Source: Chloroflexota bacterium
GTDB lineage: Bacteria > Chloroflexota > Dehalococcoidia > Lucifugimonadales > Lucifugimonadaceae
Length of the DNA stretch: 33,567 bases
Direction of reading: 5' to 3'
Assembly (NCBI GenBank): GCA_002717385.1
Contig: PBDR01000010.1
Span: forward strand, 1 to 33,567
Shown piece after piece: positions 27,869-33,567 of the stretch (positions within the stretch are counted from its first letter, which is position 1; each line of letters opens with the position of its first letter). The position numbers were made by a program, and so were the translations under genes. A model generated the notes under the pieces. That model saw only the letters and a program-made list of their open reading frames with translations, was not told the DNA's origin and did not search any database.

Positions 27869-27944
27869 GGCGACGTAGCTCAGCGGTTAGAGCGGGCGCT
27901 TCATAAGCGCTAGGCCGGAGGTTCAATTCCTCCCGTCGCCACCA
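27869..27944 (+). tRNA. tRNA-Met (CAU), elongator type most likely
   Basis: A 76-base cloverleaf including an encoded CCA (27942-27944). The seven acceptor pairs (27869-27875 with 27934-27940) are all Watson-Crick. D arm 27878-27893; anticodon stem 27895-27899/27907-27911 with loop TTCATAA, anticodon CAT at 27902-27904; T arm 27917-27933 with loop TTCAATT. The first pair is G-C, so it is not an initiator tRNA. A CAU tRNA could also be tRNA-Ile2 read with lysidine; sequence alone does not decide this. Confidence 0.95.
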
Positions 27945-27964: not shown

Positions 27965-29755
27965 ATGAAATCAATATTTTTTTATCCAAAATTACTGCCC
28001 AAAGGTCTTTTAATTCCTCTTATATTATTGTCGGTTTTAGGAATATTAGTGGGTTTTATGGATAGCCTCGCTTTGGCTATGATAGTTCCTTTATCTGAAA
28101 TGATAGTAAATGTCGATATAGATTATAGTACTATTCCACTAATATCTACTACAAAGAACTTAGTGGAAGATAGTAGTATTTCATTCAATTTAACATCCAT
28201 TGTTATTATGATTTTAGTATTTCAAATTATTCGAATATTTAGTTTGTATTTACAGGGATGGTTTAGTGCTAAATATTCTGCTGCTTATGAACATAATTCA
28301 AGAACTAATCTACTAAATTCATATTCTTATATGCCGTGGGAAAAATATGTAATTCAAGATTCTGGGGATGTTTATTTTAATATATGTAGAGTTACTAGTA
28401 TTGCCAGTGTCACTTATGGTCTTTATTGTCGAATGGTTTCATTAGTATTAACTATTATAGTGTATTTAGTTACTGCTATATATGCTACTTGGCAATTAAC
28501 TTTAGTTGCGATGATTTATTCTGTAATTGCTGCAGCCTCATTATATTTTCTAATAATGTATGCGAAAAAATTAGGTGATAAAAGATTATCAGCTGATGAA
28601 TTGATATATGGTATGGTAAATCAATTGACACAGGGGATGAAATATATCAGAGTTTCGGGTCTTATTGAGCGACAAAGACAAACCATAATTACTCACTCAA
28701 AAAAACTCGCTAAAATTAATGAATCTTTGGGGATAAATTTGGCTTTATTTAAATCTTTATCTGAAACGTTATTTTTTATTGCTTTAATTCTCCTACTTGT
28801 GATTTCAACTCAGCTATCTGTTTTATCTTCAGGTGGGTTATTGCTTTTTTCTTTATTATTTTTTCGTATTTTCCAACATGTTAGAACCTTGCAATCATCC
28901 ATACAAACTTTTTTACAAATTGAACCATATGTTTCAAATATGAATAATATTTTTGACGACAATAAAAAATATATTGATGATTTAAGCGATTCAAAATCGT
29001 ATAGAAAGATAAAGATTTCTAAAGATATAGTAGTTCAAGATTTAAATTATTCTTATGTTGACGGTATAAAAATATTGAAGAATGTTAGTATGAAAATTGA
29101 AGCTAAACGCCATACCGCCATAGTGGGATTATCTGGTGTAGGAAAAACAACTTTATTAGATTTATTGATTGGATTAATAAATCCAAAATTAGGAACTATA
29201 AAATATGACAATAAAGAATTGTCAAACGAAGAATTAAAGAATTTAAGAAGATCAATTAGTTATGTCCCACAAGGAGGGGTACTTTTTTCAGGGACACTTT
29301 TACAGAATATTGTTTTTGGGGAAGAAAAATTTAGTGAAAAGAACTTAAAAAAATCTTTAGAAGTTTCTAATGTTAATGAATTTTTACGGGATATTCCGAA
29401 TGGTCTTGAAACGAAAGTTGGAGATGGAGGATATACACTTTCTGGTGGACAAAGACAAAGAGTAATATTGGCTCGGGCAATATACAGAAATCCTAGTTTA
29501 CTTATTTTGGATGAAGCTACAAGTGAATTAGACGCAATTGCTCAGAATCAATTTATTAAGTCTGTAAATCTCCTAGATGGAGATATTACTGTAATAACAG
29601 TAGCTCATAGATTATCAAATATAATCGATGCAAATATTATATATGTTATGAAAGATGGCGAAGTTATAGAGTCAGGAAATTTTAGTCAGCTTATATCATC
29701 TGATAGTGAATTTTCAAAAATGTACAAAGCTGAAGGAAATATAAATAATATATAG
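27965..29755 (+). CDS. ABC exporter with fused membrane and ATPase domains (MsbA/PglK-like)
   Basis: 596 residues: six membrane helices (about 15-325), then an ATPase domain (about 350-590). Walker A is GLSGVGKTT (388-396, K394), the signature LSGGQ is at 492-496, Walker B is LLILDEAT (D516, E517) and the switch histidine is H548. It is a half-transporter expected to dimerise. Such exporters move lipids, lipid-linked oligosaccharides or peptides; given the facing sugar genes, a lipid-linked glycan flippase is plausible (inference). It starts 20 bases after the tRNA and ends 42 bases from the convergent NeuA gene. No terminator is seen between them. Confidence 0.9.
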   Translation: MKSIFFYPKLLPKGLLIPLILLSVLGILVGFMDSLALAMIVPLSEMIVNVDIDYSTIPLISTTKNLVEDSSISFNLTSIVIMILVFQIIRIFSLYLQGWFSAKYSAAYEHNSRTNLLNSYSYMPWEKYVIQDSGDVYFNICRVTSIASVTYGLYCRMVSLVLTIIVYLVTAIYATWQLTLVAMIYSVIAAASLYFLIMYAKKLGDKRLSADELIYGMVNQLTQGMKYIRVSGLIERQRQTIITHSKKLAKINESLGINLALFKSLSETLFFIALILLLVISTQLSVLSSGGLLLFSLLFFRIFQHVRTLQSSIQTFLQIEPYVSNMNNIFDDNKKYIDDLSDSKSYRKIKISKDIVVQDLNYSYVDGIKILKNVSMKIEAKRHTAIVGLSGVGKTTLLDLLIGLINPKLGTIKYDNKELSNEELKNLRRSISYVPQGGVLFSGTLLQNIVFGEEKFSEKNLKKSLEVSNVNEFLRDIPNGLETKVGDGGYTLSGGQRQRVILARAIYRNPSLLILDEATSELDAIAQNQFIKSVNLLDGDITVITVAHRLSNIIDANIIYVMKDGEVIESGNFSQLISSDSEFSKMYKAEGNINNI

Positions 29756-29797: not shown

Positions 29798-30538
29798 TTA
29801 ACTTTGTATGTATTCTTCAATAGATGAATATTTTTTTTTAATTTTATTTTCTGTCATAATGAAATCTTCTTCATTATCAATACTGATCATTGATTCAGTA
29901 ATTATATAACTAGTATTTAATCCAATCGGTGTTGCTTGTTTATCACAATTTATTAGGAATTCAGAATTAATAGCGTAACAGGCTCCATTTTTATGATAAA
30001 CAGGAGATAAATCTTGTCTTGAAACAATTTCATCTCCAATAGATTCATCAAACCATTTCAGATTTTCATTTTCTATTATCAATTGTTTAAAAGGATGATA
30101 TTTTAAATCACTTTCAGATACAGTAATTACTGAATCATAATTACCAATAATTTGTTTTTTTAAACATTCTCTAATATGTTTAATTTTTCTCATTGGAGAT
30201 GTAGGTTGAATCATTAGTATTACATCAATTGTTTCTTTTTTTTCTTTTATAATCCATTTCAATGCATGTTCTAGTACAGGAATATCTCCTACTCTATCTC
30301 CTGATAAATTTTTTGGTCTAATAAATGGAGAATCCAGTCCATATTCGTTTGCGATAGAAGCTATTTCATTATCATCAGTACTAACAATTTTATAATCAAT
30401 TTCATCTATAAGGTTTAGAATCTTTCCAGCGATACCAACTATAGGAATACCCATTATAGGTTTAATGTTTTTTTTATGGACTCCTTTCGAACCTCCTCGT
30501 GCTGGAACAACAGCCATTATTTTCTTACCATTAATCAA
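29798..30538 (-). CDS. neuA: CMP-nonulosonate cytidylyltransferase (NeuA family)
   Basis: 246 residues, activating an acidic nine-carbon sugar (sialic, legionaminic or similar) as CMP-sugar. The signature AVVPARGGSKGVHKKNI (about 9-25) is the CTP-binding loop, followed by STDDNEI, RPKNLSGD, LMIQPTSPMR and a C-terminal motif ending MIENE-like acidic residues. The start is the TTG at 30536-30538, giving MINGKKIMAVVPARGG, the usual N-terminus; an ATG seven codons later (30517) is an alternative. It is the last gene of the minus-strand sugar run, 14 bases after the NeuB-like gene. The sugar cannot be told from sequence; KdsB (Kdo) is less likely given the adjacent NeuB. Confidence 0.82.
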   Translation of the reverse strand: MINGKKIMAVVPARGGSKGVHKKNIKPIMGIPIVGIAGKILNLIDEIDYKIVSTDDNEIASIANEYGLDSPFIRPKNLSGDRVGDIPVLEHALKWIIKEKKETIDVILMIQPTSPMRKIKHIRECLKKQIIGNYDSVITVSESDLKYHPFKQLIIENENLKWFDESIGDEIVSRQDLSPVYHKNGACYAINSEFLINCDKQATPIGLNTSYIITESMISIDNEEDFIMTENKIKKKYSSIEEYIQS

Positions 30539-30552
30539 TTATTTTTCCGAAT

Positions 30553-32100
30553 TTAGTTCGAGATTTTTTCATCTAATAAAAACCTTCCCCAATGATCTAC
30601 GTAAGTTTTACGAGAAGATTTATGCATTTTGTTAATTTTTTTATCTTTATAAAAGGAATCATCATTATAGTGGGTGGTTGAAAGTTCTTCGAAAATAACT
30701 CCTGTTTTAGTATTGAACGAATGCCATACTCCGGGTAGAACTAATACTTGTTCTCCAGCAGAAATCTTTCTTTTTACTCCATCAATTTCAGTATTTAATT
30801 CACCAGATAAAACATAGAATGTTTCTTCTTTTTTCTTATGGAAATGTGAAGGATGTTCTTGTCCAGGAGTCTGGATAATAATTTTTTTGCAATATAATCT
30901 ATTGACCAAAGTAATTAAAACTGCCCCATATTCCTGAAATTTTTCTAATCCATAATGATGAGAAAATTCTACTTGAAAATCTGATCCAAGTTGTATTTTT
31001 GCTTCATTTAACATGGCTTTAATTTTATGAGTATGGTGTTGTAGAATTAATCTTTTTTTATCATGAGGTATTATCAGATCATCCATCATTAAGGCTTCAT
31101 TAGTTTTTAGTTTCTTTTTCGTTACTAATCCTTCTTTCCAAATCCCTGAGAAAAATTGATTGTCATTATATGGCATTGCAAAAAAAACATCATTAAGATT
31201 AATTTCAGCACCTTTTTTTATGGTTTTTTTTGCATACACACCTCGTCGAAGTTCATTTATAGATTTAACTTCTTCACTTGTTCTAATGATGTGATTTTTT
31301 GATCCAGATGCTGATTTAGCTTTTTTATATTTTTCTATCCAATTATCCAGTTGTTTTAAGGTTGCTGAATAAGCATTCAATTTTTTTAATTCTTTATTAG
31401 TAACGCCAACATGTTTTTCAAAAATTCGTGCACCTTTGGCATGAGCTAACATTACAATATCAGAGTCATTTGGATCTTCATGTGTAGACCATCCTATTGT
31501 GATGTTAGGATATCTAGACTTAAAGATTTCAATTTGATTGAGTTCCAATAATTCAGTTGGTGTTGGATACATTGAAACACAGTGCATAATTGCAAAATCA
31601 ATACCTTTATGATCAAAAAAACTAACTATTTTATCTACATCATTTATTTCCAATCCTCCAGTAGAAATTATTACAGGATAATTATATTCAGAAACTTTTT
31701 CTAAAAGTGGCCAATCGATAGCGGAACAACTTCCAATTTTTATAATATCGAATCCGATTTCATCAATAACATCTACCGAATCTTCATCAAAAGGAGTACA
31801 CATCGTTATTAAACCTTTTGATTTAGCATATTCTGCCATTTCTTTAAATTCTTTTTTAGAAAGTTTTGTAGATAAAAATCTTTTAATATGGGTAGGTTCA
31901 TCCGCATTAATGTAATCGGGATGTATAAAACTTTTTAATTGCCTAAACTGGAACTTAATGGCGGATCGAATTTTGTGTTTTTTGGATAATTCAGAACACA
32001 TCTCAATTATCGATTTACCTAAATCTATTGATCCTTGATGGTTATTAGCCATTTCAAAAACAAACAGATCATTGAAATTATATCCTTCACTATTATTCAT
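30553..32100 (-). CDS. NeuB-type nonulosonate synthase with C-terminal SAF and cupin domains
   Basis: 515 residues in three parts. About 5-265 is a NeuB TIM barrel (FEMANNHQGS, KFQFRQ, CTPFDEDSV, IKIGSCSA, EKHVGV) that would condense a sugar with phosphoenolpyruvate. About 285-342 is an antifreeze-like SAF domain (RRGVYAKKTIKKGAEIN). About 385-490 is a cupin with likely metal ligands H419, H421, E425 and H460 (PSHFHKKKEE, GVWHSF). The usual GYSDH loop reads GWSTHEDP. The cupin fusion is not in ordinary NeuB and may supply isomerase or binding activity. Start ATG 32098-32100. The condensation role is well supported, the substrate is not. Confidence 0.83.
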   Translation of the reverse strand: MNNSEGYNFNDLFVFEMANNHQGSIDLGKSIIEMCSELSKKHKIRSAIKFQFRQLKSFIHPDYINADEPTHIKRFLSTKLSKKEFKEMAEYAKSKGLITMCTPFDEDSVDVIDEIGFDIIKIGSCSAIDWPLLEKVSEYNYPVIISTGGLEINDVDKIVSFFDHKGIDFAIMHCVSMYPTPTELLELNQIEIFKSRYPNITIGWSTHEDPNDSDIVMLAHAKGARIFEKHVGVTNKELKKLNAYSATLKQLDNWIEKYKKAKSASGSKNHIIRTSEEVKSINELRRGVYAKKTIKKGAEINLNDVFFAMPYNDNQFFSGIWKEGLVTKKKLKTNEALMMDDLIIPHDKKRLILQHHTHKIKAMLNEAKIQLGSDFQVEFSHHYGLEKFQEYGAVLITLVNRLYCKKIIIQTPGQEHPSHFHKKKEETFYVLSGELNTEIDGVKRKISAGEQVLVLPGVWHSFNTKTGVIFEELSTTHYNDDSFYKDKKINKMHKSSRKTYVDHWGRFLLDEKISN

Positions 32101-32110
32101 ATCTTACTTT

Positions 32111-33214
32111 CTATGTACTTAATCTTAATGATTTATTTGTATAACCTTTTGAATAATCAATATTAACATTTCTACTTGAATTATTGCCTGACATATGTGA
32201 TGCAGATATAACAAGCATAGTTTCAAGGCCGTTTATTAATGATATAGGGCTTTTTTCGGAATTTAACCCAAGCATTTCTATATGATTTATTTCTTGGATG
32301 AAATCATCGACTCTATTTTTTTTATATTTAAAATTTTCATTAGAATTATTATCCGATAAATATAATTCATCTGATAATGAATTTTTATTTATTTCTATCT
32401 CAATTTTGCCTCTTTCAAATTCTACGACGATTTTTTTTTCTGGAGGCATAGTAATAACGTCTTGAAAAACCACACCTTTTAGATTTTTTTCAGTAGTTAC
32501 ATGAATTTTTGAATCAGAATCATATGAAATATTATTTTTATCAACATAATTTACTTGTGCAGATACTTGAGTAATTTTACCCATTTCAAATAATTTTGCT
32601 ATTACTAACCACAGGTTAAGTCCATGAGAATGTTCACCTATTGCACCTCCTCCCATTTTCCATTGACCTAAATACGAATCTTCAGGTCCGCTTAACCATG
32701 GATGAGCATTAAAAATTCCTTCCCAATGTTCTTTCCAATTAACTGTTAATTTTTTTATTTTACCTAATGAGGGATTATTTAATTTTATTTCAAATAATTT
32801 TGATATTACTTTAGAAACTGCATGTGTATAACCTACAAAACATTGTATTTTTCTATGACTAATGATTTTATAAAATTCTTCTGCTAAATACATTTCTGGA
32901 GTAGTTAGTGGTTTCTCAATCATCATCACATTTGAATTTGTATATTTTAGAGATTCAATTGCAACAAATAAATGAGTATTAGGTGGTGTTCCAACAAAAA
33001 TATAATCGTAAAATTTTTTTATATATTTTTTATTATTAATTAGTTTTATTTTTTCGTCCCATTTCCCATATCTAGAAGGATAAATATTATCCTTCATACG
33101 ATTTAAGGCTTTTTCATCAATATCCATAACGCTAACATCCCATTTTTTTATCAGTGCTGCGTGCGTAAGATGATTTCCTATAGAACCAGCTCCAAAAATT
33201 AATACACTAGGCAT
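32111..33214 (-). CDS. Gfo/Idh/MocA-family sugar dehydrogenase
   Basis: 367 residues. The Rossmann loop FGAGSIGNH (7-15) is canonical, unlike the family member at 592-1611. The EKP motif is at 100-102, and a later GGGAIGEHSHGLNLW carries the catalytic histidines. The C-terminal domain is long and beta-rich. It sits ten bases before the NeuB-like gene and one base after the partial gene at the edge, so it belongs to the sugar pathway, perhaps oxidising an amino- or deoxy-sugar precursor (inference). Start ATG 33212-33214. Confidence 0.85.
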   Translation of the reverse strand: MPSVLIFGAGSIGNHLTHAALIKKWDVSVMDIDEKALNRMKDNIYPSRYGKWDEKIKLINNKKYIKKFYDYIFVGTPPNTHLFVAIESLKYTNSNVMMIEKPLTTPEMYLAEEFYKIISHRKIQCFVGYTHAVSKVISKLFEIKLNNPSLGKIKKLTVNWKEHWEGIFNAHPWLSGPEDSYLGQWKMGGGAIGEHSHGLNLWLVIAKLFEMGKITQVSAQVNYVDKNNISYDSDSKIHVTTEKNLKGVVFQDVITMPPEKKIVVEFERGKIEIEINKNSLSDELYLSDNNSNENFKYKKNRVDDFIQEINHIEMLGLNSEKSPISLINGLETMLVISASHMSGNNSSRNVNIDYSKGYTNKSLRLST

Positions 33215-33215
33215 G

Positions 33216-33567
33216 TTATGACTTAATTTCCTTAATTGATTTAATTATTTCTGATTCGACCCGTAGTGATGAATTTCCTTTTAATGTGTGGATTAAATTT
33301 GAAAGTCCTTTGTGTTTTTTAATGGAAGGTGTTTTTATTTCAGAACTGAAGTATTTAGAAAAAAATCCAAAATCTTTCCAAAAAGATGTTTGATCGTCTA
33401 TTGATAAAAGTATCTTATCCTGAAGATTTGTGATGTTTTCTACAGATAAAGTTATTATTGGTTTTTCCATCAGTATTGCTTCTATTAAAGTTGTAGAATT
33501 AAATCCACAAATTGTCTCTGATTCATTCATTAACTTTTGAGAATTTATGTGATTAGAAATAATTAAA
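33216..33567 (-). CDS. Carbohydrate-biosynthesis protein, C-terminal part (runs off right edge)
   Basis: The frame is open to the window end, so at least 116 residues of the C-terminus are visible; the ATG at 33530 is internal. The motif GFNSTTLIEAILMEKPIITL resembles the C-terminal donor-binding site of GT-B glycosyltransferases and capsule/teichoic-type polymerases (an S-T-T-x-x-E-A pattern before KP). It ends one base before the Gfo/Idh start. The upstream part and any second domain lie outside, so the exact enzyme is open. Confidence 0.6.
   Translation of the reverse strand, partial: LIISNHINSQKLMNESETICGFNSTTLIEAILMEKPIITLSVENITNLQDKILLSIDDQTSFWKDFGFFSKYFSSEIKTPSIKKHKGLSNLIHTLKGNSSLRVESEIIKSIKEIKS

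Follow-up and report, generated by a model that had tools for sequence, protein, structure and literature searches.

A widespread fusion of a NeuB-type synthase to a lyxose/mannose-isomerase-type cupin, predicted to make a non-aminated ulosonic acid

We analysed a contig from the draft genome of a Chloroflexota bacterium (GenBank assembly GCA_002717385.1, contig PBDR01000010.1), which encodes a NeuB-like synthase fused to a SAF-like and a cupin domain. The window is this entire contig (C11), 33,567 bases long, and the draft genome amounts to 1.38 Mb and is 86.5% complete. The fusion belongs to a group of four tightly spaced minus-strand genes that reaches the contig end and comprises a glycosyltransferase fragment, a Gfo/Idh enzyme, the fusion, and a NeuA-type gene. 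In the list of open reading frames (ORFs), the gaps are 14 bases between the NeuA-type gene and the fusion, and 10 bases between the fusion and the Gfo/Idh gene. The domain make-up, the conserved active sites, and the operon neighbours were read from the sequence and the predicted fold. They lead us to consider it probable that the fused protein is a bifunctional isomerase-synthase yielding a non-aminated 3-deoxy-ulosonic acid. The features are the following (residue numbers are those of the encoded proteins).

29798-30538, minus strand: cytidine monophosphate (CMP)-sugar cytidylyltransferase, NeuA/PseF-like, 246 residues (Pfam CTP_transf_3, E 3.6e-15; family profile A7)
30553-32100, minus strand: fusion of a NeuB barrel, a SAF-like domain, and a D-lyxose/mannose-isomerase-type cupin, 515 residues (Pfam, predicted structure)
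31303-32100, minus strand: NeuB (alpha/beta)8 barrel, residues ~1-266 (Pfam NeuB 47-268; alignment to 1xuu and 3g8r)
31471-31494, minus strand: GWSTHEDP loop, residues 203-210, whose S205 and H207 correspond to Ser213 and the metal-binding His215 of Neisseria NeuB (alignment)
31066-31248, minus strand: SAF/antifreeze-like domain, residues ~285-345, with Met309 at the place of Arg314 (alignment)
30583-31068, minus strand: cupin of the D-lyxose/D-mannose isomerase type, residues ~345-506 (PF07385, PDB profile search, fold)
30823-30894, minus strand: core of the cupin for metal binding and catalysis, residues 403-426, from Tyr-Cys-Lys-Lys to HxHxxKEE (alignment)
32111-33214, minus strand: Gfo/Idh/MocA-type oxidoreductase of a subfamily without a name, 367 residues (Pfam GFO_IDH_MocA)
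33216-33566, minus strand: C-terminal part of a glycosyltransferase-like gene that the contig end truncates (weak NF046086 match, E 5e-6, 25.9 bits vs 200)
27965-29755, plus strand: ATP-binding cassette (ABC) exporter, MsbA/PglK-like, a convergent neighbour (all NCBIfam matches below their cut-offs)

The initial annotation had described a NeuB-SAF-cupin fusion between a NeuA gene and a sugar dehydrogenase gene; the three ORFs together fill exactly the range it gave, and Pfam recognises NeuB, Cupin_2, CTP_transf_3, and GFO_IDH_MocA in them. The whole fusion was modelled with a predicted local distance difference test (pLDDT) score of 92.5 and a predicted template modelling (pTM) score of 0.83.

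The cupin part matches Cupin_2 (E 9e-13) and also the D-lyxose isomerase family PF07385 (E 7.3e-9, 35.6 bits for a gathering cut-off of 20.8). To place it more precisely we used an alignment of 121 fused proteins (that of the window and 120 others, 8 of 128 candidates having been dropped for an internal stop or an X), and built a cupin-domain profile from 69 of them. All 69 domains match PF07385 at E 0.01, and the PDB sequences closest to the profile are the D-lyxose isomerases 2y0o of Bacillus subtilis (E 1.8e-18) and 7nzo of Thermofilum (1.4e-17). The comparison of a predicted cupin structure with sugar isomerases, which the initial annotation had proposed as a check, gives the same answer. 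In a model with a pLDDT of 92.3, ranks 1 to 10 of Foldseek are all D-lyxose isomerase chains, and the VIA Z is 19.4 to 7nzp (1.7 Å, 146 residues), with L-ribose isomerases at 15.1-16.1 and the next cupin class, the archaeal phosphomannose isomerases, at 12.8.

Eight residues contact the sugar or the metal in the lyxose isomerase of Thermofilum (TsLI), namely K62, H75, H77, K86, E88, H143, E156, and D163, according to the available part of PMC8378251. Placing these numbers on our alignment by hand count, we found equivalents for seven of the eight: K62, H75, H77, K86, E88, H143, and E156 correspond to K406, H419, H421, K424, E426, H460, and E472. Across the 121 fused proteins K406 is kept in 120 and H419 in 106, whereas H421, K424, E426, H460, and E472 are each kept in all. 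Profile, fold, and active-site residues thus assign the cupin to the D-lyxose/D-mannose isomerase type, and we predict that it is a working isomerase. A fold match is by itself no proof of catalysis, and a viral clade without the cupin exists, both of which would favour a non-catalytic module for sugar sensing or assembly. However, a mere scaffold would have no need of five invariant residues of this kind, and we regard such a role as very improbable.

The synthase part matches Pfam NeuB (PF03102) with E 1.2e-44 and 153 bits for a cut-off of 22.1. The Pfam SAF family gave no match at E 0.001, and the SAF-like part was assigned from a family-profile alignment that extends across the antifreeze-like domain in 1xuu and 3g8r. 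All 121 proteins keep the equivalents of eleven residues of Neisseria NeuB, K53, Q55, T110, K129, S132, S154, Y186, S213, H215, E234, and H236, and 120 keep that of F112. Of these residues, K53, S132, S154, and H236 belong to the active site. The ligand-lining residues, taken from the accessible part of PMC6795526, were compared except for N74 and F288. That source also describes Arg314, in the SAF domain, as positioning the N-acetyl group of N-acetylmannosamine (ManNAc). In the window protein Met309 stands at this place, and all 118 fused proteins with a residue there have M, F, I, W, or V; Arg is also absent from the 32 viral members labelled unfused.

The loop at residues 203-210, which the initial annotation had singled out as altered, proved to be a trait of the subfamily: 3g8r has GYSTHEDP, and of the 121 fused proteins all keep S205, H207, and E208, and 109 have Thr at residue 206. 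We therefore do not take the loop to indicate new chemistry. A quick tree was made from 74 sampled rows (50 of the 121 fused proteins, 16 of the 32 unfused viral ones, and 8 of 19 ordinary NeuB proteins), and in it the subfamily, fused and unfused, is separate from ordinary NeuB with a support of 100.

A classical 5-N-acyl synthase, of the sialate, legionaminate, or pseudaminate type, with a cupin doing another job such as epimerisation or ring opening, would fit the NeuB family match and the PseF-like NeuA. Some ordinary NeuB proteins likewise have no Arg at the 314 place, and epimerase/dehydratase genes occur in 22 of the 80 genome loci described below. Yet the protein scores far under the equivalog cut-offs for N-acetylneuraminate synthase (TIGR03569, NeuB_NnaB; 154.6 bits vs 399.65) and for pseudaminate synthase PseI (TIGR03586; 131 vs 340.25). 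The consistent hydrophobic replacement of Arg314 also argues against such a synthase, as does the lack of NeuC, for which TIGR03568 had no match anywhere in the draft genome, complete to the extent given above. The same search matches in 10 of 14 control genomes, in 2 of them above the cut-off. We hence consider a classical synthase improbable. The initial annotation had seen no NeuC-type epimerase near the fusion, which this search extends to the whole draft; an isomerase-synthase would explain why it is missing.

The fusion is common. A scan of genome contigs gave 332 stretches with relatives, and the best 80, which are the 80 genome loci considered here, all encode the NeuB-cupin fusion, with identities of 45-61% and matches running from query residue 31 or earlier to 502 or later. 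This argues that the fusion is more than a chance event. Judging from their titles, these loci come from Proteobacteria, Bacteroidetes, Planctomycetota, Acidobacteria, Gemmatimonadales, Nitrospirales, Bacillota, as well as candidate phyla, although the majority are metagenome bins and may be misnamed. In its own phylum the fusion is rare. The cupin profile found it in 1 of 301 sampled genomes, its own (E 1e-12), and a sample of the class gave 3 of 393 genomes, its own included (E 1e-45). Of 60 relatives, both members of its genus and one member of its family have a full-length match.

Viral contigs also carry the gene. Their scan gave 104 relatives, of which 80 were kept: 48 are fused and 32 match the NeuB-SAF part only, one of the latter (L172) stopping at its contig end, so that it may be a cut fusion. 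Except for L172, the unfused viral proteins are grouped together (support 100) in the midst of the fused proteins (supports of 83 and 91, not starred), and they look as if they had lost the cupin. Among plasmid and phage records, 94 and 6 respectively had a match, none of which covers 80% of the query; two phage-record matches are stand-alone cupins, and a PHROGs search gave cupin matches only (best "cysteine dioxygenase", E 1.2e-9).

We also looked for the split form, a free cupin adjoining an unfused NeuB of the subfamily, and found no adjacent pair among all the loci collected, hence no Rosetta-stone case. There were 10 cupin-only ORFs, of which 6 lie in loci without a match to the NeuB profile of the fusion. 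The other 4 lie in viral loci (L128, L131, L135, and L141) that have the fusion and a second short NeuB-like ORF of 277-288 residues, 5-9 kb from the cupin.

The neighbours of the fusion were counted by reading 7 ORFs each way, in the 80 genome loci and in a subset of 55 with more than 5 kb on both sides. The simple longest-ORF caller misassigned position 0 in 7 of the 80 loci (L033, L046, L059, L062, L082, L092, and L094), so that the numbers are probably undercounts. A NeuA gene was found in 58 loci, a Gfo/Idh gene in 53, a HAD-IA phosphatase gene in 38, and all three in 22; in the subset the respective numbers are 43, 38, 29, and 17, with a single locus having none. Places are fixed, the Gfo/Idh cluster being at -1 in 42 of the 80 loci and the HAD gene at +1 in 31. 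An ABC transporter cluster is present in 22 loci, and another cluster, in 16 loci, consists of transferase-like genes of the surface-polysaccharide kind (TIGR04396). The NeuA family profile A7 matches the CMP-Neu5Ac synthetases 6ifd (1.8e-55) and 1eyr (4.2e-51), and the NeuA-type protein profiles as a CMP-nulosonate synthetase while staying below the PseF equivalog cut-off (121.4 vs 205.7). The Gfo/Idh protein reaches the cut-off of PF01408 (24.8 bits vs 24), and E100-K101-P102, the EKP motif of Gfo/Idh/MocA oxidoreductases, is invariant in 31 of 31 proteins. Against the PDB it has distant relatives only (best E 1.1e-10), which give no functional assignment.

The frequency of the HAD phosphatase raises the possibility of a phosphorylated route. 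The cupin would turn fructose 6-phosphate into mannose 6-phosphate (or make an aldopentose phosphate), NeuB would make a product of the type of 2-keto-3-deoxynononic acid (Kdn) 9-phosphate, and the phosphatase would act before CMP activation, as in Bacteroides thetaiotaomicron. Pathways to Kdn through mannose 6-phosphate and a phosphatase are known, which makes this the main rival. In the part of PMC6200933 available, the algal Kdn-9-phosphate synthetase takes mannose 6-phosphate and not mannose, and sugar phosphatases are described as redundant. That archaeal phosphomannose isomerases are the next class by fold also favours it. On the other hand, the cupin is nearer to the lyxose/mannose isomerases, which are free-sugar enzymes, as the Z values of 19.4 and 12.8 show, and HAD genes of the shared cluster were found neither around the window gene, close to a contig end, nor in the two same-genus loci L030 and L031. 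We thus find the phosphorylated route unlikely, if less so than a classical synthase.

For a bifunctional isomerase-synthase acting on free sugars, we predict the activities, the substrate, the order of the steps, and the role of the Gfo/Idh enzyme as follows. The metal-dependent cupin would turn a ketose, most simply D-fructose, into an aldose, D-mannose. The NeuB-SAF part would then join the aldose to phosphoenolpyruvate (PEP) into a 3-deoxy-2-ulosonic acid bearing an oxygen, and not an N-acyl group, at C5. The product would be Kdn-like if made from a hexose, and a C8 acid if made from a pentose such as D-lyxose, and the isomerisation would be driven forward by the irreversible reaction with PEP. 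NeuA would make the CMP-sugar, to be used by a transferase of the BFO_1060/surface-polysaccharide type, the Gfo/Idh enzyme may alter the sugar or its precursor by a redox step, and the HAD phosphatase present in many relatives might take off a phosphate before or after. The simplest chain would be D-fructose to D-mannose to Kdn to CMP-Kdn.

Aldose-ketose isomerisation shifts a hydrogen between C1 and C2 and requires a hydroxyl at C2. An acceptor made by the cupin should therefore carry a hydroxyl at C2, which would put an oxygen on C5 of the product. The loss of Arg314 agrees with this need, so that both domains point to an acceptor without an N-acyl group. The initial annotation had suggested a nonulosonic acid made by an unusual route, or a modified one. 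An unusual route without NeuC is indeed favoured, whereas "nonulosonic" would apply only in the wide, Kdn-like sense, since a 5-N-acyl group is predicted to be absent and a C8 acid is possible.

Several observations weigh against this proposal. Quercetin dioxygenases come close behind the lyxose isomerases in the PDB profile search (E 6e-15), though not by fold, and the NF051472 equivalog for lyxose/mannose isomerases is far from reached (27.6 bits vs 350). H419 is replaced by Gln in 15 of the 121 proteins, all viral (15 of the 47 aligned viral members), and also in a genome homologue outside this set, L007. The place of D163, required in TsLI, is taken by the variable N479 (N in 56, K in 12, P in 12, and D in 9 of 121); the invariant D481, two residues further, may stand in for it. 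The Thermofilum enzyme reportedly has a strong preference for lyxose and less than 2% activity on mannose, so that mannose is not a sure substrate and a pentose may be used instead. In the synthase, the N184 place is S, A, or G in all 121 proteins, as in many ordinary NeuB proteins, and at the E25 place 62 have D and 58 have E. As a discriminator, Arg314 is weak. Among 19 ordinary NeuB controls, 9 rows cover its place (4 others being cut in the wrong frame and 6 short or gapped there); 5 of the 9 have Arg, and 4 have C, S, or K, for which reason its loss supports a non-acylated acceptor and does not prove it. The epimerase/dehydratase genes could provide a different precursor. The Gfo/Idh enzyme is left unexplained by the scheme, and none lies near the fusion in L031. 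Finally, that no such HAD gene was found near the fusion in the three loci bears on our proposal as well, the genome's own HAD relative being distant (23% identity) and elsewhere, on contig C31.

Neighbours judged by eye include a like exporter adjoining the fusion in both same-genus genomes. L030 has the same order of glycosyltransferase, Gfo/Idh, fusion, and NeuA genes as the window; the glycosyltransferase gene is whole there (444 residues), and its C-terminus is 40% identical to the fragment at the contig end. L031 keeps the fusion and the exporter, with NeuA at -2 on the opposite strand, no Gfo/Idh gene nearby, and heptose-pathway-like genes (GmhA/HldE/GmhB-like, by eye) upstream of the fusion. 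In the window, the glycan region is bordered by a transfer RNA gene (27869-27941), a possible insertion site, which has a moaC-like gene on one side and the ABC exporter on the other. A second sugar cluster of the same genome (L191, contig C31:12000-31999) has two ordinary NeuB genes, one of them short (272 residues), together with two DegT-type aminotransferases, several epimerases, and a HAD gene, all named by eye. The clostridial fusions L095 and L109 lie near MptE-like genes that resemble the flagellin-modification protein PseD, below its cut-off, and their product may go on flagellin.

The viral loci have neighbours of their own. The 48 contigs with a fused synthase (L110-L157), of which that of L137 has 547,943 bases, encode a thiamine diphosphate enzyme nearby in 18 cases and a NeuA-like gene in 13. 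Of the 32 cupin-less loci (L158-L189), 31 have an acetolactate-synthase-like thiamine diphosphate enzyme, mostly at +1, and about half (15-16) have a short-chain dehydrogenase/reductase, an AroB-related phospholyase-like gene (below its cut-off), and a 305-residue gene without assignment. These genes may form a viral pathway that makes a branched or cyclic sugar.

The initial annotation had allowed for the fusion being common and already characterised. It is common, but no description or characterisation of a NeuB/sialate-synthase-cupin fusion was found among the matches listed from the full text of Creative Commons-licensed PubMed Central papers. One of them, PMC9684190, gives neuB and cupin as separate genes in its available part, and another, PMC9740008, deals with barley miRNAs. 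The two parts are both of known kinds, and it is their combination that we did not find described in these papers, though protein databases may show the architecture. Gene-based prediction of bacterial sialic-acid-like sugars leans on the classical NeuB/NeuC/PseI/LegI pathways, and a NeuB subfamily with its own isomerase, present in many phyla by title and on viral contigs, would be mis-called sialate synthase by name. If our proposal is true, a free ketose and PEP would give a 5-hydroxy ulosonic acid in one pot. A broader version is tentative and in our view falls somewhat short of even chances: that a single polypeptide takes a ketose from central metabolism, isomerises it, and directly condenses it with PEP, that the non-aminated acid (Kdn or a new C8 or C9 acid) arises without a uridine diphosphate (UDP)-sugar epimerase and is then altered by the dedicated Gfo/Idh enzyme, and that this is a widespread, undescribed route whose enzyme is also found on viral contigs.

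Among known systems, the Kdn-9-phosphate pathway resembles the proposed route. To our knowledge it includes no Gfo/Idh enzyme, and the phosphatase of its gene set (synthase, phosphatase, and CMP-Kdn synthetase) has a HAD counterpart in 29 of the 55 related loci and not beside the window gene. In Bacteroides thetaiotaomicron and Prymnesium parvum it uses a synthase, a phosphatase, and a CMP-synthetase on a non-aminated acceptor, and a fused isomerase is not mentioned in the available text of PMC6200933. Neisseria NeuB (N-acetylneuraminic acid synthase, NANAS; 1xuu) has the barrel, the SAF-like domain, and the eleven compared residues in common with the fusion, but at 22% identity its Arg314 and Asn184 are replaced and the cupin is extra. 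Closest to the NeuB-SAF part is 3g8r of Chromobacterium violaceum, a "probable spore coat polysaccharide biosynthesis protein E" known from its structure only (38% identity, template modelling score 0.95 by target). It has 350 residues, no cupin, and a function that is putative according to its title, but shares the STHEDP loop and likewise has no Arg at the 314 place. For the cupin, the D-lyxose/D-mannose isomerases (2y0o, 7nzo/7nzp/7nzq, and 3kmh/3mpb) are free-standing, whereas here the domain is attached to a synthase; they are 20-24% identical to it and unlike it at the D163 place, and they share with it the fold with its N-terminal helix, the metal residues, and most of the catalytic ones.

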